From Candidatus Lindowbacteria bacterium RIFCSPLOWO2_12_FULL_62_27 (GTDB taxonomy: Bacteria > Lindowbacteria > 2-12-FULL-62-27), in contig MFPR01000028.1 of assembly GCA_001784175.1 (NCBI GenBank), positions 193,606 to 257,605 on the forward strand: DNA of 64,000 nt, in the 5' to 3' direction. Shown here one piece after another: positions 3,835 to 18,782 of the stretch. Below the pieces are notes generated by a model. That model had not been told where the DNA came from. It saw nothing but the letters and a program-made list of their open reading frames with translations, and did no database searches. The first letter of the stretch is position 1; each line of letters starts with the position of its first letter. The position numbers and the translations under genes are program-made.

Positions 3835-5481
3835 ATGAAATCTTTCGTCAAAGGATTAATGCTTGTGGCGATCATGGCGTGGGTGATGCTCGCGCTGTCG
3901 GATATGCCGGCCATGGCATGGTTTGACGCCGACACAGCATCGCGCGTTGACACCTCGTATGCCGCCACCGACATCGACACCATCATTCAAAGCGGTATCC
4001 CCGGTGACGGTCTGGAAGGCGCCGCCGATGAAACCAGTGCGGGACGTTTGTGGGTTACCTATGTCAAGACCAACGGACAGAAGACCAGCGCCCAGAAGAC
4101 GGGTACGCAGTACGACACGTATGTGTCCGACACGGTGCTGGGTGTGCCGACAGGCATGCTGAGCATTCAGTGGGCCTATGACAATGACAGCCGCCAGCGC
4201 CAGTTCGCCCCGCCATTGGAGGGCTTTACCGGATGGGTCGGCAACAACACGAAGATGGAGAAACTGCCGCGTGACACGCAGTGGGTGTTGCCGGAGAGCG
4301 GCGAAACCGTGCCGCTGGATGACCAACTCTGCTTTTTGGTCATTGAAACCGCCGACACCGGGTCGGTCAAGCTCAACATCGTCAACACCAGCAACTACGC
4401 CTGTTCGTTCGTCCTGCTGGTCAACTTCCCGGACACCGATTTCAACGTCGGCCAAGTCCCGCAGGGCGCGAAATGGCTCACGGAGGGATCGAGCCTTCGG
4501 GACCGCTTTATTGTCAGCGTCGGCCAGAATGCCGACTCCGGCAACGGTCTGGACGGCAACCGCCTGGACACCATCTCGGTGCAAGGCACCGTCGTGAAGA
4601 TTGACGCGCACATCAACAGCGTGCTCCTGGCGGAAGAAGCGGAGACACAACTCTGGTTGCGATTCGCCGCCGATACGAGCGCCGCGGCTCGAGACTCGAT
4701 GAGCGTCACCGTCCAGCTCATTGGTGACACGGAATACGGCGGCCTTCAGTGGGGCACGAGTCGCCACACCCGTATCTTTCACGACAGCGGGTACTACGGC
4801 GACAACGACACCCACTACGGCGAAGGCGGCTCCTCGGATTCGGTGTCGATCTTCGTGCTGGTGGCGACCGCGATCGTGCGGGTCAAGAAGACCGACTCGG
4901 TCTTCGCCCCCACCAGTTATGTCAACGTGACCGCAAGTAGAATTTTCGGAGACACGGCCCAGCGCGAGCGCGACACAGTGCCCGGCGCGACCATCATCTA
5001 CGAGATAACCTATGATAACGATGGAAACCGCCGAGCGGACACCGTCGACATCATAGACTTTTTGGACAGCAACGTCGACTTTGCGATCGACACGATCAAC
5101 TCCCGGTGGGATACGACGTATTTCAACACCGGCGTCGACACGCGTATGACGCATGCGCGGCCCGCCAACGCGGACACGTATGTCTACGTTGCGTTCAGTT
5201 TGCGCGGAACGCCGTCCGTGTTCGGCGAAACGCAGGTCAACTTTAACGCGATTGGCAACGGGAAATCCACCGTTGAGACGGTCGCAGCCGTTCGGATTCG
5301 CTGGAACCCAGCGACGAACAACGATGCGGCTCTCAGGCGCGACCAGATTGACGAGCCGGCGGGCAACTCGACCGCCACGTGGGATCCGCTCGACAGGGTG
5401 GAGAGCTGCACCATTTTGACCACCGCCAACAGCGACAGCGGCGACTGCGGCCGGATTCGCTACCACGTAGTGATCCGGTAA
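3835..5481 (+). CDS. Secreted Asp/Thr-rich DUF11-type surface protein, copy 1
   Basis: A 548-residue exported protein. ATG 3835 has an AGGAGG ribosome binding site nine bases upstream. The signal peptide ends near MPAMA-WFDADT. The body is rich in Asp-Thr and Asp-Ser pairs. Near residues 380-420 it carries the signature of the DUF11 conserved repeat domain (PF01345): DTVPGATIIYEITYDNDGN followed by a VDIIDFLDSNVDF-type strand. The protein ends in GRIRYHVVIR, a terminal motif shared with its paralogs. It is nearly identical over long blocks to the protein at 15482, and more distantly related to that at 13675. No catalytic motif is seen. A surface or extracellular-matrix role is inferred from export and domain type only. 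Confidence 0.85.
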   Translation: MKSFVKGLMLVAIMAWVMLALSDMPAMAWFDADTASRVDTSYAATDIDTIIQSGIPGDGLEGAADETSAGRLWVTYVKTNGQKTSAQKTGTQYDTYVSDTVLGVPTGMLSIQWAYDNDSRQRQFAPPLEGFTGWVGNNTKMEKLPRDTQWVLPESGETVPLDDQLCFLVIETADTGSVKLNIVNTSNYACSFVLLVNFPDTDFNVGQVPQGAKWLTEGSSLRDRFIVSVGQNADSGNGLDGNRLDTISVQGTVVKIDAHINSVLLAEEAETQLWLRFAADTSAAARDSMSVTVQLIGDTEYGGLQWGTSRHTRIFHDSGYYGDNDTHYGEGGSSDSVSIFVLVATAIVRVKKTDSVFAPTSYVNVTASRIFGDTAQRERDTVPGATIIYEITYDNDGNRRADTVDIIDFLDSNVDFAIDTINSRWDTTYFNTGVDTRMTHARPANADTYVYVAFSLRGTPSVFGETQVNFNAIGNGKSTVETVAAVRIRWNPATNNDAALRRDQIDEPAGNSTATWDPLDRVESCTILTTANSDSGDCGRIRYHVVIR

Positions 5482-5489
5482 TCCAGCAT

Positions 5490-6690
5490 GGAGGAGACGG
5501 TATCGACAGAGCGTAGAGCATAACCACACGCGTCGTTCGAAAGCGACAGGCCAATGCGCCCCAAAAGGGCCGGCCAGGCCTGTCACGCGGAGAATGGACG
5601 CAGAACGGAGCGGCAAAGATGGTTCCAGTTGGAGATCGATCACCCTCGGAAGGTGGTGATGGGCCGAAAGGCTGAAGGACAACCGAGGGCGTTGGTTGAA
5701 ACGCCGGGAGAGAGTGTCCAAGACGGGGATGTTCCAGGCCACGAGGTCGGTAAGCGCCTCGCATGCGCGTGGAGTGTCCACCCCGTGGGCTCTGTAGACC
5801 CGGCACAACGACGGAACCTGTTTTGTGTTGCTTCGATCTGCGCAAGCAGTACATTCTTCCACGCTGACAGGGCTGTGGACGGTGCTAGACCTAATTTAAC
5901 CGAGGGATCGGGGTCGGTGAGTACGATGGACCCGGTTTCCGGAGCGACGACGGACACGCGGAACATCCGTGTCCCAGCTTCCATTACCGCCGGCCAAGCC
6001 TCCGGCCGGGCGGTAGGGTATGAGTTTCGTTCCGAACGTCTTGATCAATGTGAGCGTTCAGCGATGGTCCAATCCCATCGATCCACGCTTCGAGATCGGG
6101 CGGCGCGGACATCCCGGAGGTATTTTCCCCGCCATCTGTTTTACCTTCGATACCGCCTCAGACAAGCCATGACTTTTGCTCATGGCATGGGTCTGGGATC
6201 TCGTCGTGGTTTGTCCCTGGGGGCAACGGGGGCGGAAACAGAGAGCGGCCTCATGGAGAGAGGTGATGTGAGACTGCGATAGAGGATGCCGGCCGGCGAG
6301 ATGCGGCCGAGAAAAACAAATACAGGTACGGCCTCCTAACTTGGATGTATCAAGGGTTCAAATCCCGAATACATGCCGTAGGGGAGAGGAACCTAGGGAA
6401 TATTGCTGGCCCTGCGACGCAGGTTGGAACGCGGGGAATATTCCCAACATATTGAGAGCGTAAAAGCTCTCAGCGAAGTCGGTGAGGTGAGGCTGCGCGT
6501 TCGGTAGGTCTGCGCAGCAGATACCAGGCCGCAGTCGATGTGGATAGTTTACACGCAAAGTCCTTCAAGACTTTGAGCGGAGAGAGTCTGTCCCCAACGG
6601 CTGACGAGACTTAGCAGGGTAAAGGTCTTGCCCCTGATGGCGGGCAAGGTGAGCGAAGCGATTGACCGCTTTGCATAGGAAAGGTGTTGC
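5490..6690. other. 1.2-kb non-coding region dense in perfect hairpins (candidate structured RNA)
   Basis: No plausible gene is present between 5481 and 6694. Many perfect stem-loops line up instead. Examples by position: 5545-5584, 5639-5660, 5688-5705, 5952-5974, 5986-6014, 6062-6080, 6159-6195, 6327-6380, 6454-6471, 6493-6517, 6556-6575 and 6627-6648. Some loops are GNRA-like. The 6327-6380 structure carries a tRNA T-arm-like GGGTTCAAATCCC but has no D or anticodon arm. It does not match rnpB, tmRNA, 6S or a group II intron domain V as far as I can judge by eye. Strand is undecided: part of it (5511-5584) is the reverse complement of an element in the leader at 13464. Confidence 0.5.
5511..5584 (-). 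repeat. Two-hairpin element, copy A (minus orientation)
   Basis: Read on the minus strand this is a long hairpin (GACAGGCC ... GGCCTGTC, 5584-5545), a 13-base spacer and a 21-base hairpin of form GCGTGTGGT-TAT-GCTCTACGC (5531-5511). The 21-base part matches the plus-strand copy at 13532-13552 at 20 of 21 positions. On the minus strand the substitution keeps G-T wobble pairs, whereas on the plus strand it gives A-C mismatches. This suggests, if RNA is made, that it is made from the minus strand. Confidence 0.55.
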
Positions 6691-6693
6691 CCA

Positions 6694-8151
6694 ATGAGAT
6701 TGACGAAGGCGAACGATAATAAGGAGGAATATAAGGGTTTGTTAAAGTTATTCCTACAGCGGAATAACTTCACGCCCCTCGTCTGCCTCCTCGCCTTCGG
6801 ACTTGTTTCGCTCTTCATCCTTCCGGCGAACGCCGTTTTCTTCAACTACAGCTCCGGCAGCACCGGCGCCTACAACACCGACTCCGGCACAGCCATTCGC
6901 AGCGAGGGCCAATCGAGCGCGATCACCCCGACGCCCGGATCGTTCGGCCTGACCTACTACCGCGCGAACGTCAAGGTTGCGGCCAACACCGACACGCGCT
7001 ACGGCGTCGTCGGGCCGGCGGATTCGAGCAGTCCGCGGGTCAAGGCGATCTACGGCGATACGCTGTCCGTCCTTTCCGGGCCTTCCACGCCGAACGACAC
7101 GGTCGTCATCGCCGGCACGTCCGACTTCGACACCGTTTACCTCACGGCCGACACCGCCGTTTCCGGCGATGTCCTGACTTACGTCCTCGCCGTCACCAAT
7201 TACGGCAACGCCGCCGATACCATCGGCCTCATCGTCGACAGCGCCTGGACCCGCGGCGCCGGCACCGATACGTCCACCGGCCGGTTCAGCTACCAGTTCT
7301 TCGACCGGACCGGCGCGGCTCTGACCGGGATCCTGACGCTGGCGCATCAGGACACGGCGAAGGTCGCGCTCAAGGCGGACACGGGCGTCGAGACCGCGAG
7401 CCTGAAGATTTACACCGCCGGCGCCTCCAACGCCGACACCGTCCGGATGTTCGTCCGGGCCTTCGCGAACAACGGCAGCGGCCGGGCCATGGCGACGAGC
7501 GGCGAGGTCGCGCCGTATGTGGGGTTGAACGGCGTCAAGTACGGCGGGAGCGGCAACGCCTCGACCTTCTTTGAGGTCACCGTCAGCGGGCCGCTGGTGC
7601 GGCTGGCCAAGTTCGACACGGTATTCGCGCCGGTGTCGCTGGGCGGCGCCACCGGCGCGGCCGTGGATGACACGCAGCACTACGTGCCCGGCGCGATGCT
7701 GGTCTATACGATCTGGTTCGACAACGACGGCAACGACACCGCCGACACGATCGTCATCGAGGACTGGATCGACACGCGGCACCTGCGGTTTGACAGCGCC
7801 GGCCTTTCGCAACTGCGCGGCGTCGCGCAGATCGCGGCCTCCGGCGCGCTTGCGGACTCATTCTACGGAAACATTTATGCCGACAGCAGGATGCCGAACA
7901 TCGGCGGGGCGGTCTTCAGCATATCGATCCAGTATTCCTCCGGCGGCGACTCCTTTGCCGGATTGACGGAGGCCACGCCGCTCGAGTCGGTCGGCCGCTT
8001 GCGGTGGACGATCGGCCGGGTCGGCACGCGGGGCGTGGTGGGCGCGAACAACGGCGACGATGTCGAGGCCGTCGACCTGCCGCCGGTTGCGGCGGGCGCG
8101 GCGTCCGACGTGGACATGGGCTACGTGCGCTTCGCGGTGGTGATCCGATGA
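6694..8151 (+). CDS. Secreted DUF11-type surface protein
   Basis: An exported protein of 485 residues from ATG 6694. A TTG at 6739, with AAGGAGG eleven bases upstream, would give a more conventional signal peptide (MLKLFLQRNNFTPLVCLLAF...PANA), so the start is uncertain. The mature part is Asp/Thr/Ala-rich. A DUF11 signature lies near residues 330-360 (DTQHYVPGAMLVYTIWFDND, then IEDWIDTRHLRF). The last residues are GYVRFAVVIR, the terminal motif of this family. Its stop overlaps the next gene start in ATGA (8148-8151), so the two are translationally coupled. Its domain region is clearly homologous to that of the downstream protein, indicating tandem duplication. Confidence 0.8.
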   Translation: MRLTKANDNKEEYKGLLKLFLQRNNFTPLVCLLAFGLVSLFILPANAVFFNYSSGSTGAYNTDSGTAIRSEGQSSAITPTPGSFGLTYYRANVKVAANTDTRYGVVGPADSSSPRVKAIYGDTLSVLSGPSTPNDTVVIAGTSDFDTVYLTADTAVSGDVLTYVLAVTNYGNAADTIGLIVDSAWTRGAGTDTSTGRFSYQFFDRTGAALTGILTLAHQDTAKVALKADTGVETASLKIYTAGASNADTVRMFVRAFANNGSGRAMATSGEVAPYVGLNGVKYGGSGNASTFFEVTVSGPLVRLAKFDTVFAPVSLGGATGAAVDDTQHYVPGAMLVYTIWFDNDGNDTADTIVIEDWIDTRHLRFDSAGLSQLRGVAQIAASGALADSFYGNIYADSRMPNIGGAVFSISIQYSSGGDSFAGLTEATPLESVGRLRWTIGRVGTRGVVGANNGDDVEAVDLPPVAAGAASDVDMGYVRFAVVIR

Positions 8152-11100
8152 TGGCCCTGCTGCGAGTCCTGATGGCGTCGATTGCGGTCGCGTTCGTGTT
8201 CATGACTGCGTTCGTCGGCGCGCCCGTTTGGGCGGATGACACGGCGAGCCTGTTCGGCCCGGTGCAGAAGACGACGCCGGGCGGGATGGGCCTGACGGCG
8301 ACGGTGGCCGACGGCGTCGCGGTCACGACGCCGACGCAGGCGGGCGCGTACTACTTCAAGATCAGCACAACGCTTGATTCGACCTACGCCCTGCGCACGG
8401 CGCTCAGTTCCTACGCCGCGCGCGTGGACACGATTCCGTACATCCGGCGGGTCGACACGATCTACAGCGACACGATCGGCCTCACGAGCGAGAACGTCGC
8501 GAGCGATCCGCTCAAGGACACGGGGCGGACCATCTTCAAGGGCGACACCGCGACCTACATCCTGGCGCTGACGAACCTCGGCAACTCGACCGATTCGATC
8601 GGCCTCGTGATCGACACCGCCACCGTCGACAGCTACGCCGGCGTGAACTTCGACACGATCCCGAACTGGTCCGCGCACTACTACGACTCGCGCGGCGTCC
8701 TCATCGGCAAGGCCTCCGGCCTGGACCGCGACACGGTCTTCATCCGCCTGTCGGCCGGCAAGTCGGAGACGGTCACGGTCAGGATCTACAGCGACTCGGC
8801 CGCCTGGGACACATCGTCCATTCAGCTTACGCTCGGGGCGTTTGCGGCGAACGGCAACCGGTACAAGTTCGCGGTTCGGGCCTACCGCGGATTCACGGGC
8901 GACACGTTCGGCGGGGATGGGCACGACTCGATCACGCTGTATGTGAAACTCAAGGCGACGACGGTCCTGCGCGTCGCCCGCGCCGACACGGCGCTGTCCG
9001 TGTCGCTCGGCAGTCACGCGTCGGACGCGAACATCACCGACACGCAGCATTTCGTGCCGGGCGCGATCGTGGTGCGGACGATCTGGTTTGACAACGACGA
9101 CAGCTCGCCGGTCGACACGCAGGTGGTGGTCGAAGACTGGATCGACACGCGGTTCCTGCAGTTCAGCAGCGCCGGCGCCGGGGCCTTGGGCGCGGGCCAG
9201 ACCGCCGCGTCGGGCGCGCTCGTCGCCGGCCAGTACGGAAACATCTTCGTCGACAGCGGCATGCCGAACAACATGACCGGCGCCACTCAGATCGACGTCC
9301 GCGTTGAATATCTAACCGGCGCCGGCTGGACGCAGCTTACGCAGGCGATTCCGGCGTCGAGCGTCGGGCGGCTGCGCTGGACGATCACGCGCGTCGCCGG
9401 GACGGGGGCGCTGGTCGGCGCGACGAACGGCGACGGCGCGCTGGCGATCGATGCGGCGCCGGCGGCCTTCGGCGCGGCCACCGATTCCGACATGGGGTAC
9501 GTCCGGTACTCGGTCGTGATCCGGAGCGACAGCAGCGCGGCGAAGGGTCCGGGGCGGCCGGAGTCGGGGGTTCTCGTCGGCATCAATCCGTCGGCCGCCG
9601 GGTTCGACTCGGCCTTCATCGAGCCTGACACGAAGGGTCTGAGCGCGCGGACAACCTTTGTGTCCGCACTGCTCGCCGAGTATCTGCCGAACGTCGACAT
9701 CGTGCCGGAGACGCTGTCGGCCCAGAAGATCCAGCAGACCGCCGGCGACACGTTCTACTTCCCGCACCGGATTGGCAGCCACGGCAACGCGCCCGACAGC
9801 TTCGCGGTGAGCGGCACGACCACGATCGACGCCATCGGCGGCCGGGTCACGTTCCTGCTTGACATCGGCAACGCCGGGTCGTTTGACGGATTCGAGCCGA
9901 AGCTCGATACCTTCACGCTCAACGGGTCGATGACCGACTCGAAGGACGTCCTGGTCGCCGTGTTTGTGCCCGCGGGATACTCCGGCCATGACACCGCCTA
10001 TCTGCGGGTGGCGTCGGTCCGGAACCGCGCGTTCTACGACACGGGCACGGACGTGTTCCGGGTGGTCGGCGCATCGCAGGTGGCGCCGGACACGGCCCAG
10101 CCGCAGACGGTGGGATCGGGCGATTCGGTCTCGTTCACGTTCTTCCTGAACGTTCCGCCGACGGAGGACACGATCATCCTCGTTCTGGATTCGCCGCCGC
10201 TTGGCGGCCCGGCAGCCGACTCGGTCGTCATCACGATTACCGAGTCCGGTACCGTGAAAGTGTCGGACAGTTCGGTCACGGTGACGCTCGATACGACCAC
10301 CGGCCAGCTCACGATCACGTTCACGGAAACGCCGCGGTCCGACACGTACGTGTGGCAGGTGACGGTCCAGGAGACGGACAGCGGCTCGATCAAGGTCACG
10401 TTCAGTGACAGCGGCCAGTTCATCATCGACACCGTGCCGCCGTTCGTCACGGACACGAACCCGGCCCGGCTGTTCATTGTGGACACCACGCTGGTGGGCG
10501 CCGAGACGACGATCAGCATCCGGATCATGGATACGGCCCTCGGCGACACGACGACCGGGATCGATTCGCTCGTCATCACGATCCTTGACACGGCCGGCAC
10601 GGTGGTCCGGGTCGACACGATCGACGCCTACACGCTGTATCAGTTCCCGTTCGACACGAGCGGCGCCTTTACCGTGCAGGTCGTCGCGATCGACAACGCC
10701 GGCAACACCGTGGCCCTGCCCGACTCGCTGCCGGTCGTGATCCCGGTCAAGCGCGTGATCGACCTCGTGGCCGCCGACAAGTTCAGCGCGGAGGAGAAGG
10801 ACGACGTGGCGAAGGGCCTGACGGCGCAGGGGATTGTGCGGGTGAAGGATCCGGGCGCGAACAAGGACGGGACGAGCTTCGACCGGATCGAAGTCACCAT
10901 CCTCTCGGACGCCGACCTCATCGGATTCACGCTGCAGCTCGACGAGACGTCGATCAACAGCGGGATGTTCCAGGGGACGCTTGGATTCACCAACGGCGTC
11001 ACCAACGCCAACGCGAAGAAGATCAAGGTCCGCGACGGCAGCGTCATCACCGCCAAGTATGACGCGGATGGCAGCGCCGGGCCGGTCGTGTTCATCGCGG

Positions 11101-11426
11101 ACCAGATCGCGTGGCAGGGCGAGGTCATCAAGGATCTGGACCGCGTGCGGACGTGGCCCAATCCGTACAACCAGTTGACCGATCCGTGCGCCTACTTCCA
11201 CAACCTCCCGTCGGATCCGCACATGACGATCGAGCTCTACAACCTGAACGGCGAGATCGTCATGACGCTGCGGGTCGGCCAGGAGATCACCCACTCGGCG
11301 AACCAGAACCTCGGATGCTGGGACGGTCGGAACAGCCGCGGCCAGATGGTGTCCAGCGGCACGTACATTTACCTCGTGCGGTCGAGCGCCGGCACGAAGG
11401 TCGGAAAGATGACGATAGTGCACTAA
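8148..11426 (+). CDS. Large secreted DUF11/Ig-like protein with FlgD-like C-terminal tail
   Basis: A 1092-residue exported protein. The ATG at 8148 overlaps the preceding stop; the signal peptide ends near GAPVWA-DDTAS. Residues up to about 460 parallel the upstream paralog, including DTQHFVPGAIVVRTIWFDND and an internal GYVRYSVVIR, where the paralog terminates. Beyond that come several Ig-like beta modules full of Asp-Thr pairs, for example PPFVTDTNPARLF. The final 90 residues form a FlgD-like/gliding-type tail: WPNPYNQL, IELYNLNGEIV, LGCWDGRNSRGQMVSSGTY and a closing GKMTIVH. Tails of this form are common on surface or secreted proteins of uncultured diderms and may anchor or sort them. No enzyme motif is visible. 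A start inside the previous gene is possible in frame but would lose the signal peptide. Confidence 0.85.
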   Translation: MMALLRVLMASIAVAFVFMTAFVGAPVWADDTASLFGPVQKTTPGGMGLTATVADGVAVTTPTQAGAYYFKISTTLDSTYALRTALSSYAARVDTIPYIRRVDTIYSDTIGLTSENVASDPLKDTGRTIFKGDTATYILALTNLGNSTDSIGLVIDTATVDSYAGVNFDTIPNWSAHYYDSRGVLIGKASGLDRDTVFIRLSAGKSETVTVRIYSDSAAWDTSSIQLTLGAFAANGNRYKFAVRAYRGFTGDTFGGDGHDSITLYVKLKATTVLRVARADTALSVSLGSHASDANITDTQHFVPGAIVVRTIWFDNDDSSPVDTQVVVEDWIDTRFLQFSSAGAGALGAGQTAASGALVAGQYGNIFVDSGMPNNMTGATQIDVRVEYLTGAGWTQLTQAIPASSVGRLRWTITRVAGTGALVGATNGDGALAIDAAPAAFGAATDSDMGYVRYSVVIRSDSSAAKGPGRPESGVLVGINPSAAGFDSAFIEPDTKGLSARTTFVSALLAEYLPNVDIVPETLSAQKIQQTAGDTFYFPHRIGSHGNAPDSFAVSGTTTIDAIGGRVTFLLDIGNAGSFDGFEPKLDTFTLNGSMTDSKDVLVAVFVPAGYSGHDTAYLRVASVRNRAFYDTGTDVFRVVGASQVAPDTAQPQTVGSGDSVSFTFFLNVPPTEDTIILVLDSPPLGGPAADSVVITITESGTVKVSDSSVTVTLDTTTGQLTITFTETPRSDTYVWQVTVQETDSGSIKVTFSDSGQFIIDTVPPFVTDTNPARLFIVDTTLVGAETTISIRIMDTALGDTTTGIDSLVITILDTAGTVVRVDTIDAYTLYQFPFDTSGAFTVQVVAIDNAGNTVALPDSLPVVIPVKRVIDLVAADKFSAEEKDDVAKGLTAQGIVRVKDPGANKDGTSFDRIEVTILSDADLIGFTLQLDETSINSGMFQGTLGFTNGVTNANAKKIKVRDGSVITAKYDADGSAGPVVFIADQIAWQGEVIKDLDRVRTWPNPYNQLTDPCAYFHNLPSDPHMTIELYNLNGEIVMTLRVGQEITHSANQNLGCWDGRNSRGQMVSSGTYIYLVRSSAGTKVGKMTIVH

Positions 11427-11479
11427 TGCCCGCTTGGAGCGGGATAGATCGGGCCAGGAAAACGAAAGAGGTGATGTGT

Positions 11480-12985
11480 ATGAACCAGGGGAAGAAGTTG
11501 AAAGGGGCACTGAGGGAGTACGGCCTGCTGTGGACGTACTATCTCCTTGTATTAACAGTGCTGATTGTCGCGTCGCGGCCGGCGATGGGGGCGTCGACCG
11601 GCACGACGGGCGCGCCGTTTCTGAAGATTTCGGTCGGGTCCCGGCCGGCGGCGATGGGGTCGGCCTACACGGCCGTGGCGGAGGAGCCGTATGCGCTCCA
11701 TTACAACCCCGCGTCGATCGGCCACATGGACCGGTGGGACCTGTCGGCCATGCACCAGGACCAGTTCGGCGAGGTGAGCTTCGACTATTTCGGGCTTGCC
11801 GCGCCCGCGATCAAGAACCGTTCCGGCTGGGGGATGTCGTTCGTCCGCATGGCGGTGGACGACTTCTCCCGGACGGAACTGGACGACGGCGTCAAGTTCA
11901 CGAACGCGGACATGGCGCTGACGGCGACGTATGCGCACCGGATCTTCAAGCCGCTCAGCTTGGGCGTGAGCGGCAAGCTGATCAAGCAGACGCTGGCGCA
12001 GTACACGGCGAACGGCTGGGCCGTGGATTTTGGAGCGCATCTCAAAGTGAACCCGCGCCTGTCCCTGGGCGCGTCCATTATGAATATCGGCCCCGACATC
12101 ACCTTCATCGCGATCGGCGATCCCCTGCCGACGACCCTCCGCGCGGGCGGCGCATTGAAGCTCCTGCCGCGGGGAAACCTCCTGGCCACGATGGATTACT
12201 GGATGCCGAAAGACGACGCGAAGGGATTCGGCATGGGCGTCGAGTATCGTCCGAGCCGGTTTCTGGCGTTTCGCGGCGGCTATCAACTTGGCACGTCGTT
12301 CCGCGGATTCAACGCGTCCTCTTTTGGATTGACCTTTGATTTTGACAATTTCGGAATCGAATACGCGTTTGTTCCGCGCGAGAAGCTGGGCGACGTGCAT
12401 CGCGCGGGTCTGAACGTTTCGTTTGGCGGGAAGAAGCCGGAAGTCATCGCGCAGCGGAAGCGGGATGTGCGCCGGAAGGAAACCGTGCGGCGCCCGCAGC
12501 GCGAGCCGGCCGTTCAGTCGGTGTCGGTGCGCGCGGAGAAAGCGCCGGCGCCGAGCGTGCCGGTGGCGGCGCCGGTGGCCGCGCCGGTTGAGCAAGAGGT
12601 ACCGGCGTGGAAGAGCGTGCTGGCGGAGAGCGGAGAAGGAACGTGGGCGGTGGCGGCGCAAGAGGAAAGATCGGCGAAGGAATCAGCGCCGGCAGAGGCG
12701 CCTGTCTCACCGGCGCCGGCGCAGGAGGAAAGGCCGGCATCGGCGTCCACGGAAGCGATCGTTCAGGAGAAACTCTCGATCGCATCAGGGCTGCTCCGGG
12801 ATCAGCGGTATGAAGAGGCGGTGGCGATCATTCGCAGCGGACTGAAGGAAGATCCTCGGAACGTCCCGCTCTGGTACCTGCTGTCGGAGAGTCTGTACAA
12901 AATCGGCGAGTATGACGAGGCGATGGAAGCGGTGAACAGGGCGCTGACCCTGATTCACAGCGGACGGGGTGGCATAGCTCCATAA
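11480..12985 (+). CDS. PorV/PorQ-like outer-membrane barrel protein with TPR tail
   Basis: A 501-residue protein. ATG 11480 follows AAAGAGGTG. The signal peptide ends around RPAMGA. Residues 30-330 show the PorV/PorQ hallmark: APFLKISVGSRPAAMGSAYT, ALHYNPASIG, then alternating strands such as GLTFDFDNFGIEYAFVP. A Pro/Ala/Glu-rich linker (about 340-425) joins a C-terminal TPR-like pair (LRDQRYEEAVAIIRSGLKED, KIGEYDEAMEAVNRAL). PorV proteins of type IX secretion systems shuttle substrates at the outer membrane. The rest of that system is not in the window, so only a barrel-scaffold role is inferred. It sits 53 bases after the FlgD-tailed protein gene, probably in one operon, which fits an export or anchoring partner. 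Confidence 0.8.
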   Translation: MNQGKKLKGALREYGLLWTYYLLVLTVLIVASRPAMGASTGTTGAPFLKISVGSRPAAMGSAYTAVAEEPYALHYNPASIGHMDRWDLSAMHQDQFGEVSFDYFGLAAPAIKNRSGWGMSFVRMAVDDFSRTELDDGVKFTNADMALTATYAHRIFKPLSLGVSGKLIKQTLAQYTANGWAVDFGAHLKVNPRLSLGASIMNIGPDITFIAIGDPLPTTLRAGGALKLLPRGNLLATMDYWMPKDDAKGFGMGVEYRPSRFLAFRGGYQLGTSFRGFNASSFGLTFDFDNFGIEYAFVPREKLGDVHRAGLNVSFGGKKPEVIAQRKRDVRRKETVRRPQREPAVQSVSVRAEKAPAPSVPVAAPVAAPVEQEVPAWKSVLAESGEGTWAVAAQEERSAKESAPAEAPVSPAPAQEERPASASTEAIVQEKLSIASGLLRDQRYEEAVAIIRSGLKEDPRNVPLWYLLSESLYKIGEYDEAMEAVNRALTLIHSGRGGIAP

Positions 12986-13263
12986 GCTCAAGAGTTCAGA
13001 ACTAAGTACTCGAAGCTTTCTTCGAAGAGAAGAAAGATCGCGGAAAAAAACGTTTTCGATGAGGTGGGTCATAAAGAAGCAGGGGTGGGTAAAAAAGATG
13101 AAGTGGGACCAGTAGAAAGTGGGAAATTCGTAAGGAGGTGGTGGATCAAGGGTAAGTGAGGTTCGGTAGAGTGGGTTCCAGAAAAAGGCGGTAAGCTGAT
13201 CTTCAGGAAAAAAGCAACTTCCTGAAGGCGTGGTAATTATATCCCATCTGTCAAAGATTTTCA
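12986..13263. other. Intergenic region, hairpins and G-rich direct motifs, no gene
   Basis: A perfect 8-bp hairpin with a five-base loop (CTTTCTTC-GAAGA-GAAGAAAG, 13016-13036) follows the PorV-like gene and could end its transcript, although no U-run follows. From 13060 to 13150 there are several GTGGGT-type motifs reminiscent of the repeats at 1858. A further hairpin (TTCAGGAA ... TTCCTGAA) lies near 13203-13227. I see no supported coding sequence. Confidence 0.5.
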
Positions 13264-13292
13264 TTGACAGAGGCTGTTTCCAACTGTATAAT
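13264..13292 (+). promoter_or_regulatory. Perfect sigma-70 consensus promoter
   Basis: TTGACA at 13264-13269 and TATAAT at 13287-13292 are separated by exactly 17 bases. Both hexamers match the consensus completely. Transcription would start near 13299, leaving a leader of about 375 bases before the GTG at 13675. The -35 box is also one arm of a small inverted repeat (CTGTCA ... TTGACAG). Confidence 0.75.
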
Positions 13293-13298
13293 TTGGGA

Positions 13299-13674
13299 AC
13301 GGGATACGATTATAGGCACATAAGGCTGAAAAGTGAATTTCAGCCCGAAAGTTAAAAAATTTTTTGGAGCGAAACGTCATGATCGAAATGAAAACAGAAG
13401 TCGAAAGTCAAACAGATACGAACGAGGTCGAAGCGGTTGTTCAGGATCGTCGCACCGTTTTGGCGCAGGCCATCGGGCGCACTACGGCCGGCCCGGCCTG
13501 CGATAAACCCGCAAGACCGAGTTCAACCACAGCGTGTGGCTATGCTCTACGCTCAAACACGCAGGGCGACCCTCCGATGGCCCGGAGCGAGATGGTTCCA
13601 ACCCATCCGGATTGCCTTATGAAGGGTAACTGAAGCAACGGCGGAAACGCCGAACAAAGAAGGAGGTCAACACG
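13299..13674 (+). promoter_or_regulatory. Long structured 5' leader with two-hairpin element copy B
   Basis: The predicted leader contains a perfect hairpin GGCTGAAA-AGTGAA-TTTCAGCC (about 13325-13346). The element shared with 5511-5584 follows, here in plus orientation: CGCAGGCC ... GGCCTGCG at 13464-13502, then GCGTGTGGC-TAT-GCTCTACGC at 13532-13552. Next is a GATGGTTCCAACCCATC-type hairpin (13591-13606). A GNRA hairpin CGGCG-GAAA-CGCCG lies just before the AAGGAGG ribosome binding site. A short frame from ATG 13379 to 13633 crosses these structures; it is not convincing as a protein. The arrangement suggests a cis-regulatory RNA, but no known riboswitch class was recognised. Confidence 0.5.
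13464..13552 (+). repeat. Two-hairpin element, copy B (plus orientation)
   Basis: A long hairpin (13464-13502) is followed by a 29-base spacer and a 21-base hairpin (13532-13552). The 21-base part and the arms of the first hairpin correspond to copy A at 5511-5584 read on the opposite strand. The order of the two hairpins is the same in both copies once oriented. Confidence 0.55.
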
Positions 13675-15297
13675 GTGGGGTGTTGGCGGAACAAGGTGGG
13701 GTTGAATTTCATAGTGGGGCTCGTTCTGGCCACGATGATCGTGTGCCCGGCCGAGGCCTATCCGCCGAACCAGACGGACACGTGGGCGGGCGCCACGAAC
13801 ATGGATTCGTCCATCATCAACGGCGTGCCCGCGGATCTGAACACATCGGCCGACAGTCTTCCCGGGCGATTGTTTGTGGGTTACACGAAAGGCAACGGCG
13901 TGCGGACGAGCGCCGCGCAGGCGGGAACGCAGAGCGACACGTATGTGTCCGACACGGTGCTGGGCGTTCCAACGGCCGAGCTGACGATCGAATGCATCTA
14001 CGACGTGGACAGCCGAAGCCGGCAGATCCTGCCGGGTCTGGAGGGATTTGGCGGGTTTTCCGGCGTATCGGGCGAAACGTACCCGCGGTGGCCGCTCCCG
14101 CTCGAAAGCGGGGACACCGTTCCCGTGGTGGACAGTCTCGCGATCGTGATGCTGGAGACCAACGACACTGCGGCCGTTCTCATCAACATATACAACACGA
14201 GCAACTATTCGTGTTCCTTCGTCATCCTCATTAATTTCCCCGACACGGATTTTCACGTTGGCCGGCCTCCGACCGGCGGGACCTACGACAGCGAGGAGGC
14301 GGTTTTGCTGGACAAGTTCATCGTGGGCTTGGGCGTGAATCCGGAGACGGGCGTGGGTCCCAACGGCCGGGTCGACAACATCACGACGGCGAGCAACGGC
14401 GGCTCGCCCGTCGTGGCGTATCCGCACGTGTTGAGCGTTCTGATCGCCGAGGAGGCCGAGACGTCCTTTTATCTGCGAATCGCCTCGGACACCAACGCCT
14501 TCGCGCGGGATTCGCTGTGCATCACGGTCTTGTGCATCGGCGACAGCGAGTACAACAGCGTGGCGTACGGCGGCCGGCGGCACACGCGGATCTGGGACGA
14601 CAGCGGGTACTTCGGCGACAACGACTCGCACTATGGCCGGGGCAGCTCGCAGGATTCGGTGTCGATCTGGGTCCTGGTGGCGACCGCGGTGGTGCGCGTG
14701 AAGAAGACCGACTCGATCTTCGCGCCCATCGGCTACCGGATGGCGGTGCAGGGCGGCGCGGGGACCGACACGAACGCGCGCGCGCGGGACACGGTGCCGG
14801 GCGCGACGATCGTGTACGAGATCACGTACGACAACGACGGCAACCGGCGCGCCGACAGCATCTTGATCATCGATTTTCTGGACAGCAACGTCGATTACAA
14901 CGTGGGCCCCTTCTACAACGCCAACGGCAGCGACTCGTTCTACTCGACGAACGGCGTCGACACCCGGATGACGCATGCGCGGTGGATGGCGGACAACGTC
15001 GACACGCAGGTGATCGTGGAGTTCAGCCGGCGGAACGCCATGGACGAGTTCATTCAGGAAACGACGATGCTGGTCCAGTCGACCGACTCGATCATGGACT
15101 CGGTGGCGGGCATCCGGATCCGGTGGTCCGTGGCGACGCTGAACGGATCGCTCAAGCGGGACCAGGCGGACGACGGCTCGTATTCGGGATCGGTCCTGGA
15201 CGATCTGACGACGGTGGACGGTTGTGCGATCACGACGGCGGCGTCGAGCGACAGCGGCGACTGCGGCCGGATCCGGTTTTCGGTGGTGATCCGGTAA
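13675..15297 (+). CDS. Secreted Asp/Thr-rich DUF11-type surface protein, divergent paralog
   Basis: A 540-residue exported protein starting at GTG 13675, eight bases after AGGAGG. The signal peptide ends near MIVCPAEA-YPPN. The order of conserved blocks is the same as in the 3835 and 15482 proteins: SDTYVSDTVLGVPTAEL, CSFVILINFPDTDFHVG, LLAEEAET-like LIAEEAET, HTRIWDDSGYFGDNDSHYG and VLVATAVVRVKKTDSIFAP. The DUF11 signature DTVPGATIVYEITYDNDGN lies near residue 375, and the C-terminus is GRIRFSVVIR. Sequence outside these blocks has diverged, so it is an older duplicate than the 3835/15482 pair. It is the gene served by the consensus promoter and long structured leader at 13264-13674. No enzymatic motif is visible. 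Confidence 0.85.
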   Translation: MGCWRNKVGLNFIVGLVLATMIVCPAEAYPPNQTDTWAGATNMDSSIINGVPADLNTSADSLPGRLFVGYTKGNGVRTSAAQAGTQSDTYVSDTVLGVPTAELTIECIYDVDSRSRQILPGLEGFGGFSGVSGETYPRWPLPLESGDTVPVVDSLAIVMLETNDTAAVLINIYNTSNYSCSFVILINFPDTDFHVGRPPTGGTYDSEEAVLLDKFIVGLGVNPETGVGPNGRVDNITTASNGGSPVVAYPHVLSVLIAEEAETSFYLRIASDTNAFARDSLCITVLCIGDSEYNSVAYGGRRHTRIWDDSGYFGDNDSHYGRGSSQDSVSIWVLVATAVVRVKKTDSIFAPIGYRMAVQGGAGTDTNARARDTVPGATIVYEITYDNDGNRRADSILIIDFLDSNVDYNVGPFYNANGSDSFYSTNGVDTRMTHARWMADNVDTQVIVEFSRRNAMDEFIQETTMLVQSTDSIMDSVAGIRIRWSVATLNGSLKRDQADDGSYSGSVLDDLTTVDGCAITTAASSDSGDCGRIRFSVVIR

Positions 15298-15481: not shown

Positions 15482-17125
15482 ATGAAACCGATTGTAAAAG
15501 GGTTGATTTTGGCGGCGTTTCTTGCGGGGGTTTTGGCGGCGTTCATGGCCACACCGGCCATGGCATGGTATGACGCTGACACGGCATCCCGTGTGGACAC
15601 TTCGTATACCGCCACGGACATCGACACGAGCATTATCAACGGTATCCCCGGTGACGGTCTGGAAGGCACCGATGATACACAGGCCGGACGTTTGTGGGTT
15701 CGCTATGTCAAGACCAATGGGCAGTTGACCAGCGCCCAGAAGACGAGTACGCAGTATGACACGTACACGTCCGACACGGTGCTGGGCGTGCCGACGGGCA
15801 TGCTGAGCATTCTGTGGGCCTATGACAACGACAGCCGACAGCGACAGTTCGCTCCGCCTTTGGAGGGCTTTACCGGCTGGGTCGGCAACAACACGAAGAT
15901 GGAGAAACTGCCGCGTGACACGCAGTGGGGGCTGCCGGAGAGCGGCGAAACCGTGCCGTTGGATGACCAACTCTGCTTTTTGGTCATTGAAACCGCCGAC
16001 ACCGGGTCCGTCAAGCTCAACATTGTCAACACCAGCAACTACGCCTGTTCGTTCGTCCTGCTGGTCAACTTCCCGGACACCGATTTCAACGTAGGCCAGG
16101 TTCCGCAGGGCGCCACATGGGGCACAGAGGGATCGAGCCTTCGGGACCGGTTTCTCGTCAGCATCGGCGAGAGTGCCGACACCAGCTTGGGCCTGAACGG
16201 CGCTTCCCGGGACACCATCTCGACGGAAGGGACCGTCGTGCGGGTCCAGCCCCACATTCTCGGCGCGCTCCTGGCGGAAGAAGCGGAGACGCAACTCTGG
16301 TTGCGATTCGCCGCTGACACGACCGCCAGCGCCCGGGATTCGCTCAGCATCACCGTCCAGCTCATTGGTGACACGGAATATGGCGGCGTTCAGTGGGGCA
16401 CGCTTCGCCACACCCGGATCTGGCACGACAGCGGGTACTACGGCGACAACGACACCCACTACGGCGAGGGCGGTTCCTCGGACTCGGTGTCGGTTTTTGT
16501 GTTGGTGGCGACCGCGATCGTGCGTGTCAAGAAGACCGACACGGTCTTCGCCCCGACGAGTTACGTTCGTGCCACCGCGGCCGCAATCTTCGGAGACACG
16601 ACCTCGCGCGAGCACGACACCGTGCCGGGTGCGACGATCCTTTACGAGATCACCTATGACAACGATGGAAACCGCCGAGCGGACACCATCGACATCATAG
16701 ACTTTCTCGACAGTAACGTCGACTTCAAGATCGACACGTTCAACGACCGGTGGGATTCGTCGTATTTCAACACCGGCGTGGACACGCGTATGACGCATGC
16801 GCGGCCCCGCAACAAGGACACGCTTGTTTACGTTTCGTTCAGTTTGCGCGGCACGCCGTCTGTGTTCGGCGAAACGCAGGTCAACTTTAACGCGATTGGC
16901 AACGGGAAATCCACCGTTGAGACGATCGCGGCCGTTCGGATTCGATGGAGCCCATCGGCGAACAACGACGGGTCCCTCAGGCGCGACCAGGTTGACGAGC
17001 CGGGGGGCAACTCGGCCGCCACGTGGGATCCGCTCGACAGGGTGGAGAGCTGCACCATTTTGACCAGCGCCAACAGCGACAGCGGCGACTGCGGCCGGAT
17101 CCGGTTCGCGGTGGTGATTCGGTAA
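15482..17125 (+). CDS. Secreted Asp/Thr-rich DUF11-type surface protein, copy 2
   Basis: A 547-residue exported protein. ATG 15482 is preceded by a purine-rich GGGGGTTAGAGG. The signal peptide ends near MATPAMA-WYDADT. It is almost the same protein as that at 3835. Long blocks are identical, for instance from the motif NDSRQRQFAPPLEGFTGW to NVGQVPQG and through the DUF11 region (DTVPGATILYEITYDNDGN). Shorter windows differ, such as residues after GSSLRDRF and after NVDF. It ends in GRIRFAVVIR. The mosaic of identity and difference suggests recent duplication followed by gene conversion. It is inferred to be a surface-exposed structural protein; there are no catalytic residues to report. Confidence 0.85.
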   Translation: MKPIVKGLILAAFLAGVLAAFMATPAMAWYDADTASRVDTSYTATDIDTSIINGIPGDGLEGTDDTQAGRLWVRYVKTNGQLTSAQKTSTQYDTYTSDTVLGVPTGMLSILWAYDNDSRQRQFAPPLEGFTGWVGNNTKMEKLPRDTQWGLPESGETVPLDDQLCFLVIETADTGSVKLNIVNTSNYACSFVLLVNFPDTDFNVGQVPQGATWGTEGSSLRDRFLVSIGESADTSLGLNGASRDTISTEGTVVRVQPHILGALLAEEAETQLWLRFAADTTASARDSLSITVQLIGDTEYGGVQWGTLRHTRIWHDSGYYGDNDTHYGEGGSSDSVSVFVLVATAIVRVKKTDTVFAPTSYVRATAAAIFGDTTSREHDTVPGATILYEITYDNDGNRRADTIDIIDFLDSNVDFKIDTFNDRWDSSYFNTGVDTRMTHARPRNKDTLVYVSFSLRGTPSVFGETQVNFNAIGNGKSTVETIAAVRIRWSPSANNDGSLRRDQVDEPGGNSAATWDPLDRVESCTILTSANSDSGDCGRIRFAVVIR

Positions 17126-17165
17126 GAGGCAGCGTGAAGAAAGGGGTGGTGTGATCGGGATGCTT

Positions 17166-17246
17166 GGGATCTTACACTCATGCGTCACGTGATCCCATGC
17201 AGCGGGCTTTAACCCTCTGAGGCAGGCGGCGGTCCGACCCCGCCGC
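17166..17246. terminator. Hairpins between convergent genes
   Basis: Two stems lie between the convergent ends of the 15482 gene and pepA: GGGATC ... GATCCC (17166-17196) and GCGGCGG-TCCGACC-CCGCCGC (17226-17246). The second is strong enough to stop transcription in both directions, but no U-run follows, so a terminator role is tentative. Confidence 0.4.
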
Positions 17247-17318
17247 GCAACACGCCGCCGAGGCCGCGGGTTTGATCCCCGCCGTCAAACGGACAGAGGG
17301 AGGCTCATGCCCGTCCGA

Positions 17319-18782
17319 CTACATCTTGGGGAGATCGCCTCTGGCTCGGAGGAATTCGTAGAAGAGCCGGACGCCGATGCCCGTGGCGCCGGGGGGCCGG
17401 CCATCGCGGCCCCGGGTGTCCCATGCTGTGGCGGCGATATCGAGGTGGGCCCATGGGACGTGTTCGTCGGCCAGGAATTTTTTGAGAAACATTCCGCCGA
17501 TGATGGTCCCGGCCAGCCGTCCCTCGGGGATGTTCTGGACATCGGCCACGGAGCTTTTGATGAGCCGGTCGTATCCGTCGTGGAGGGGCAGTCTCCAGAG
17601 TCGTTCGCCGCAGGTTTCGCCGGCCTCCTGGAGGGACTGCGCGAGCGCGTCATTGTTGGAGAGGATGGCGGCGTAGACATCCCCGAGCGCGATGGAACAC
17701 GCGCCCGTGAGGGTGGCCATGTCGATGACGGCTTCGGGCCGGAAGCGGCCGGCGTAGAAAAGCGCGTCGGCGAGGATGAGGCGGCCCTCGGCGTCGGTGT
17801 TTTTGACCTCGATGGTCTTGCCGGAGAGGCTTCGGACGACGTCTCCCGGCCGGGTGGCGGCGCCTCCGGGCAGATTTTCCGTGAGGGGCGCAAGGCCCAC
17901 GAGCGGGACGCGCGGTTGGAGCGTGCGTGCGGCGGAAAAGATTCCGATGACCGCCGCCGCTCCGGACTTGTCGTGTTTCATCTCCTCCATCTTGTCGGAG
18001 GGCTTGATGGAGATGCCGCCGGAATCGAAGGTGACGCCTTTGCCGACGAGGACGATCGGACGGCCCGCGGTCGGAGATTTTGGATTTTGGGTTTTGGATT
18101 TTGGATTGTATTGAAAAACCAGAAAGGCCGGGGGCTCGTGGCTGCCGCGGGCGACGGCCAGGAAGGCGCCCATGCCGAGCCGTTCGCAGGCGCGGCGGTC
18201 GAGGACTTGGACGCGGACGGCGCCGCCGGAAAGTTTGCGGGCGCGCCGGGCGAGTTCGGCCGGGGAACCCATGTTGCCCGGGAGATTGGAAAGGTCGCGC
18301 GCGAGATCGACGCCGTCGGCGACGGCTTCGATGTAATGGAGGAGGGACCCGATCCGTCCGCGTTCGGCGGCGGACCGGCACACGATGGCAAGGGATTCCA
18401 GTGGTTTGTCTTTGGGCGCTTCGGAACGAAGAGAAAACCGGTATTGCGACAATCGGACGCTTTCGGCGAAGATTCCCGCGGCTTCTTCCGCATCCGGCAG
18501 GGGCCATGCGTCCGTTTCAAAGGTCACGTGCCGGACGCCGCGGCCGGCGAGTTCCTGCGCGGCTTCCGCAGAGGCTTTTCTCAGGCCATCGCGCTCGAAT
18601 TTGTCTTTCGGGCCAAGTCCGACCGCGAGCCGGTGCGCGTCATCGCCGGGCAGGAAGAGCCGCTCGCCGGATTTTCCGTGAAAATCGGCGGCCGGCGTCG
18701 GTTTCTGACCTTCAAAGAAAAATCGGATGCTGCATCCTTTGCGAGGCGGCCTTCGCCCGCCAACTTCCGCGAACAATCTCAC
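17319..18782 (-). CDS. pepA: Leucyl aminopeptidase (M17, PepA family)
   Basis: A two-metal cytosolic exopeptidase of 487 residues (E. coli PepA has 503). The M17 catalytic half is intact: VGKGVTFDSGG, KPSDKMEEMKHDKSGAAAV and the signature NTDAEGRL. The start is GTG 18782, which overlaps the stop of the upstream gene in GTGA (18782-18779). Translation is therefore likely coupled to that secreted DUF11 protein, an unexpected partner. Between the N-terminal and catalytic domains a short low-complexity insert (NPKSKTQNPKSP) is encoded by a TTTTGGATTTTGG-type simple repeat (about 18080-18112). It lies in the interdomain linker, so activity is probably unaffected. Confidence 0.9.
   Translation of the reverse strand: MRLFAEVGGRRPPRKGCSIRFFFEGQKPTPAADFHGKSGERLFLPGDDAHRLAVGLGPKDKFERDGLRKASAEAAQELAGRGVRHVTFETDAWPLPDAEEAAGIFAESVRLSQYRFSLRSEAPKDKPLESLAIVCRSAAERGRIGSLLHYIEAVADGVDLARDLSNLPGNMGSPAELARRARKLSGGAVRVQVLDRRACERLGMGAFLAVARGSHEPPAFLVFQYNPKSKTQNPKSPTAGRPIVLVGKGVTFDSGGISIKPSDKMEEMKHDKSGAAAVIGIFSAARTLQPRVPLVGLAPLTENLPGGAATRPGDVVRSLSGKTIEVKNTDAEGRLILADALFYAGRFRPEAVIDMATLTGACSIALGDVYAAILSNNDALAQSLQEAGETCGERLWRLPLHDGYDRLIKSSVADVQNIPEGRLAGTIIGGMFLKKFLADEHVPWAHLDIAATAWDTRGRDGRPPGATGIGVRLFYEFLRARGDLPKM

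Follow-up and report, generated by a model that had tools for sequence, protein, structure and literature searches.

Few large structured RNAs have been described in bacteria, and most are without an understood function. For comparison, we drew facts about such families from PMC12286853, PMC9723947 and PMC8637638, and facts about leader motifs from PMC11109978. GOLLD is encoded by phages or prophages, often near tRNA islands. ROOL appears in passages of PMC12286853 as a large, elaborate RNA with a linker that is not conserved between homologs. OLE is large and highly structured, measures about 600 nt and has an unresolved function (PMC9723947). Group II introns are large structured RNAs as well; one domain of the canonical introns contains an ORF. 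Their circularly permuted (CP) counterparts are reported without one (PMC8637638). Finally, there are leader RNAs and riboswitch candidates whose conserved structure encloses or pairs with the SD sequence and start of the next gene (PMC11109978).

The element described here lies in a chromosomal operon of surface-protein genes in a groundwater bacterium of the candidate phylum Lindowbacteria, within a window of 64,000 nucleotides (the whole stretch of DNA that was analysed). Like ROOL as portrayed in those passages, it is large and elaborate, with a part that is not conserved between homologs; ROOL, however, is phage-associated and no open frame is reported for it there. The Lindowbacteria element has no match in Rfam. 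It also differs from GOLLD in its chromosomal operon setting, from OLE in being twice as long and outside the Gram-positive extremophiles in which OLE is mainly found, and from group II introns in having no Rfam intron match, no reverse transcriptase match and no second genome copy. As in leader RNAs, the structure encloses or pairs the SD-like sequence and the beginning of the following gene, but the element is about ten times longer and contains a long stop-free frame.

The initial annotation had pointed to GOLLD, ROOL and OLE and proposed a search of Rfam. That search detected no family at the gathering threshold over the window, nor, at E values up to 5, over 5400-6900, so that none of these three RNAs is recognised by its model, and contacts with the next gene point to a role in cis. 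Its location, too, is unlike that of GOLLD and ROOL: phage records and plasmids gave no match, the surface operon is conserved in three genera, and the two tRNA genes of the window are 36 kb away. No catalytic core of a group I or II intron was recognised by the models, and the single genome copy gives no sign of recurrence or mobility. By these tests, the element belongs neither to GOLLD, ROOL or OLE nor to the group II introns. There is good support for a large folded RNA outside the known classes.

A hairpin-rich element between two surface-protein genes

The region 5490-6690 had been singled out for its hairpins and its position between two surface-protein genes, and both observations hold. 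It is flanked by + strand surface genes at 3835-5481 and 6694-8151, with DUF11-type repeats that are clear in the latter and weak in the former. Counting perfect Watson-Crick stems of at least 6 bp with loops of 3-10, we found 10 in this region; 151 other 1.2-kb windows from the 64 kb had 3.4 on average and never more than 8. Dinucleotide shuffles of the stretch gave a mean of 1.9 such stems (maximum 6). Compared with shuffles, the fold z of the whole element was -5.2 on the + strand and -3.0 on the - strand; its two homologs reached -6.9 and -11.4 on the + strand and were weaker on the other. Given these counts, the fold z and the lack of an Rfam match, the unusual hairpin density is real. 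Other details needed revision. Among the GNRA-like loops noted earlier, one is a plain GNRA hairpin (GCC-GAAA-GGC, 5663-5672), but the other notable loops are T-loop-like (6062-6080, 6345-6374). The element is also longer than the hairpin-rich stretch: it spans ~5486-6771 on the + strand, ~1.29 kb, and runs into the next gene. Its homologs measure 1.36 and 1.63 kb.

Several neighbouring features were recorded. The genes 3835-5481, 13675-15297 and 15482-17125 are three related surface genes with near-identical ends (...VVIR-stop). The C-terminus of a large protein encoded at 8148-12985 weakly matches FlgD/CHU_C (type IX sorting), and a PorV-like gene comes next, which suggests a type IX-like secretion context. 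The intergenic region after the last surface gene (17127-17330) contains the T-loop-like hairpins GCGGCGG-TCCGACC-CCGCCGC and GCGGG-TTTGATC-CCCGC.

Conservation in three genera of Lindowbacteria

When 98 genomes were searched at the DNA level, collinear pieces appeared in G001 and G002, both from the same family. A search of the phylum covered three genomes, representing three genera; each carries the element, and always at the same site, flanked by the same pair of DUF11-type surface genes. Using gene names assigned by resemblance, the order common to all three is priA-like helicase, F5/8-type C/fn3 protein, surface gene, RNA, surface gene. Most of the sequence has diverged, while a 5' block (5510-5584) and a 3' region (~6325-6696) are strongly conserved.

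Covariance models of the 5' domain (R1) and the 3' domain (R2) were searched against 290 genomes and found only the three Lindowbacteria; they did not detect the element in the other 287, and the remaining matches were weak. Those of R2 outside the phylum stayed below 17 bits and were taken as chance. Phage records and plasmid collections gave no match to the element, and viral contigs contained no 3' motif and one bare 19-nt match to the 5' motif. A pattern scan of contigs recovered the two known relatives and a Terriglobus match, which was rejected as it spans no more than 19 positions of the model and resembles coding DNA. No other copy or repeat of the element was found in the same genome, and literature searches did not turn up an RNA of this kind from Lindowbacteria. 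We consider both the existence and the conservation of the RNA very likely. In our reading, it is inherited vertically inside the surface-protein operon.

Domains and helices

The conserved 5' domain (5510-5584, + strand) has a mean column identity of 91% in alignment A1. It starts with the near-invariant motif AGCGTAGAGCATAACCACACGCG (5510-5532) and continues into hairpin P3 (5545-5584) with an inner P4 (5558-5570). Within the variable middle, a core CTGTGGACGG (5873-5882) is identical in the three genomes. A T-loop-like hairpin, GATGG-TCCNATC-CCATC (6062-6080), is present in all three homologs, and only its middle loop base varies.

The 3' part consists of a series of + strand helices. Hairpin A (6345-6374) is T-arm-like, with the T-loop TTCAAAT (TTCGATT and TCCCATA in the homologs); its stem ATGTAT/ATACAT is swapped for GATCAC/GTGATC, and for a third stem in G002 (segment z -1.9, -3.3 and -3.3). 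Helix B (6396-6445) exists in three versions, GGGAATATT/AATATTCCC, TTGGAAACGC/GCGTTTCCAA and CGTCCGTCAG/CTGACGGGCG. Hairpin C (6453-6472) is formed by TGAGAGC/GCTCTCA, replaced by AGCGTCC/GGACGCT in G002. An invariant helix, GC.AAGTC/GACTT.GC, closes the next domain (6474-6615), which holds region E and hairpin D (6493-6517), paired in all three genomes despite changes. According to the models and alignments, the last domain (6617-6692) is closed by GGGTAA/TTGCCC and contains hairpins F1 (6627-6648) and F2 (6653-6674). Helices that still pair although their sequence was replaced include A, B, C, D, F1 and F2.

In the automatic alignment of the 3' region, 86% of the cells were paired, compared to 37-47% when partners were slid, but with three sequences the count of double changes alone did not exceed that of shuffles. 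Covariation is limited since there are only three homologs, and pair counting on this alignment understates it, as hairpins that differ in length are not aligned correctly. We therefore also compared the helices by hand and folded the segments between conserved anchors without alignment; the segment folds are free of the selection bias that comes with picking helices by hand. The fold z of the segment with B and C was -5.7, -6.2 and -5.9 in the three genomes and that of the middle segment -4.4, -4.0 and -5.1, with weaker values for the remaining segments. The listed helices contain G-U pairs and almost no A-C pairs on the + strand, which favours this strand, though the helices were picked on it. 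With same-site homologs in three genera, preserved helices, the + strand signal and no Rfam match, the earlier proposal of one large structured RNA is well supported.

Contacts with the next gene

The SD-like sequence AGGAAAGGTG (6677-6686) preceding gene 6694 lies inside the last domain, and the helix GGGTAA/TTGCCC closes 1 nt before the AUG at 6694, or directly before it in G001. A conserved structure thus encloses or adjoins the SD-like sequence and the start in all homologs. Conservation runs on into the coding region: AAGGAGGAATATAA and a hairpin preserved in the three genomes (6745-6770) occupy 6718-6770, inside codons 9-26. There, nucleotide identity is 90% versus 53% in codons 27-100, and where the amino acid is identical, the codon is shared in 89% of cases versus 56%. 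TTA and CTA, each of which makes up 0.9% of the leucine codons here, are kept in place in all three genomes. This suggests an RNA-level constraint on codons 9-26 that would tie the element to the gene, though the encoded residues are likewise conserved. Neither a sigma-70 promoter nor a terminator was found on the + strand inside the element. The last domain also contains a short in-frame ORF (6637-6678; MAGKVSEAIDRFA, then TAG) with AAAGGTC upstream, and the pattern AAAGGTSTTGCCC...ATG occurs twice, at this ORF and before the AUG at 6694.

Since the contacts involve the SD-like sequence, the AUG and early codons, we favour action in cis over a free-standing ornate RNA. Our candidate reading, to which we assign a probability of about 50%, is one very large + strand intercistronic RNA that acts in cis on the DUF11-type surface gene 6694. 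The site shared by the three Lindowbacteria genomes, the fold z, the compensatory helices, the open frame and the lack of an internal promoter or terminator argue for it. Against it stand the limited covariation among only three homologs, the size, as 1.3 kb is unusually large for a cis element, the imperfect SD-like sequence, the lack of a clear SD at ATG 5554 and the conserved amino acids in codons 9-26.

The main rival is a large ornate RNA of the GOLLD, ROOL or OLE kind, processed from the operon transcript and acting in trans as free RNA or RNP. Size, elaborate structure and a variable middle between conserved ends would fit such an RNA, and its 5' motif may pair with a companion RNA near 13.3-13.6 kb, which has the complement of this motif in two genomes. 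We nevertheless consider it unlikely: it lacks a dedicated promoter on the + strand, and conservation does not stop at the end of the intergenic region but continues through the SD-like sequence, the AUG and codons 9-26 of gene 6694.

A smaller related element

The companion (13264-13660, provisionally assigned to the + strand) was recognised by the second R1 match in the genome, a syntenic copy in G002 and a promoter scan. Read in operon direction, it starts in the window with a perfect sigma-70 promoter (13264-13292), contains a P3/P4-like structure (13467-13504), the complement of the 5' motif at 22 of 23 positions (13532-13554) and a T-loop-like hairpin resembling that of the large RNA (13591-13607), and leads into surface gene 13675. 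It holds a small ORF (~13384-13633) that is open in the phase of the shared blocks. Strong local inverted repeats surround the promoter (13201-13350; fold z -5.6 and -5.0 on the two strands).

In G002, the companion is found on the opposite strand ~500 nt beyond the PorV-like gene, at a 141-nt overlap of two contigs (C109:1-365 and C19:1-170). Read in operon direction, it carries the motif complement as two blocks, of ~10 and ~11, and terminates with a T run; next comes an aminopeptidase-like gene, encoded on the other strand. This gene follows the companion directly, and the place of 13675-15297 and 15482-17125 is empty in G002. In G001, where the contig stops short of this place, none was found.

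Whole-length duplex energies between the large RNA and the companion say little about pairing, as other windows of this GC-rich sequence reach lower values. It is quite conceivable, and we hold this tentatively, that the companion is a - strand paralog of the 5' domain that does not pair with the large RNA at all. R1 prefers the - strand (13486-13553, E 0.0076; 30.5 versus 21.3 bits), and four features of the G002 companion are collinear with the 5' domain in this orientation, but the perfect promoter and the T-loop-like hairpin are both on the + strand.

A stop-free frame through the middle

The stretch had been described as gene-free and devoid of codon structure. The former is not quite accurate and the latter holds only in part: codon-usage periodicity is nearly absent, but the frame of ATG 5554 (5554-6282, + strand) had been overlooked. 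Counted from TAA 5521 in the 5' motif, its open length is 252 codons here and 354 and 289 codons at the corresponding site of the homologs. It contains no in-frame stop, versus 5.7, 8 and 6 expected, while the two other frames have 7-14 stops each. Under a first-order Markov model, the chance of such a frame is at most 2e-4 for each of the sequences, which are not independent. Its phase is kept across indels in all alignable blocks, including the core CTGTGGACGG, save two weak short matches; conserved blocks downstream lose phase. No clear SD precedes ATG 5554. The preceding surface gene runs in this frame too, two stops upstream, in each of the three genomes. A frameshift signal, TTAAAG after AAGGAGG, was dropped because the heptamer is not conserved.

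Could the middle be a real, fast-evolving protein gene inside an intron-like or mobile-element RNA? The frame is open and its phase conserved in three genomes, as expected of a gene, but substitutions show no third-position bias (30/26/27 at codon positions 1/2/3), codon usage is unlike that of genes of these genomes and the codon score is negative. The product matched no Pfam family, only weakly one of NCBIfam, and no reverse transcriptase, and its structure model is unfolded (mean pLDDT 35, from a shallow alignment). A weak PHROG match of unknown function (E 0.0007) was not confirmed by tblastn against phages. With a single genome copy and no Rfam intron match in addition, a protein gene is improbable. 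The frame seems to be kept open while the peptide is not conserved; only the openness seems to be under selection, judging from these comparisons. That the locus is functionless hairpin-rich intergenic DNA or decayed palindromic repeats, as its GC-rich, palindromic sequence and mostly unconserved middle might suggest, is contradicted by near-invariant blocks across genera, replaced helices that still pair, the lack of repeats elsewhere in the genome and same-site conservation in three genera, and can hardly be true.

Proposed mechanism and implications

If the large RNA acts in cis, opening or refolding of its 3' domain would set the translation of gene 6694, since the SD-like sequence sits within this domain and the closing helix lies next to the AUG. 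The long transcript would be protected from Rho by ribosomes moving along the amino-acid-neutral frame, and/or their passage would time the folding of the 3' domain. Upstream translation would thereby be tied to the expression of gene 6694. More speculatively, this could be a candidate for a new kind of element: a giant translated RNA in which the peptide sequence is irrelevant and ribosome passage is the function, coupling the surface genes of the operon.

The element is longer than most large structured bacterial RNAs, and it has a fixed place in an operon and a clear candidate target. It thus raises two testable questions: can very large RNAs act in cis on translation, and can ribosome passage, rather than the peptide, be what selection keeps?
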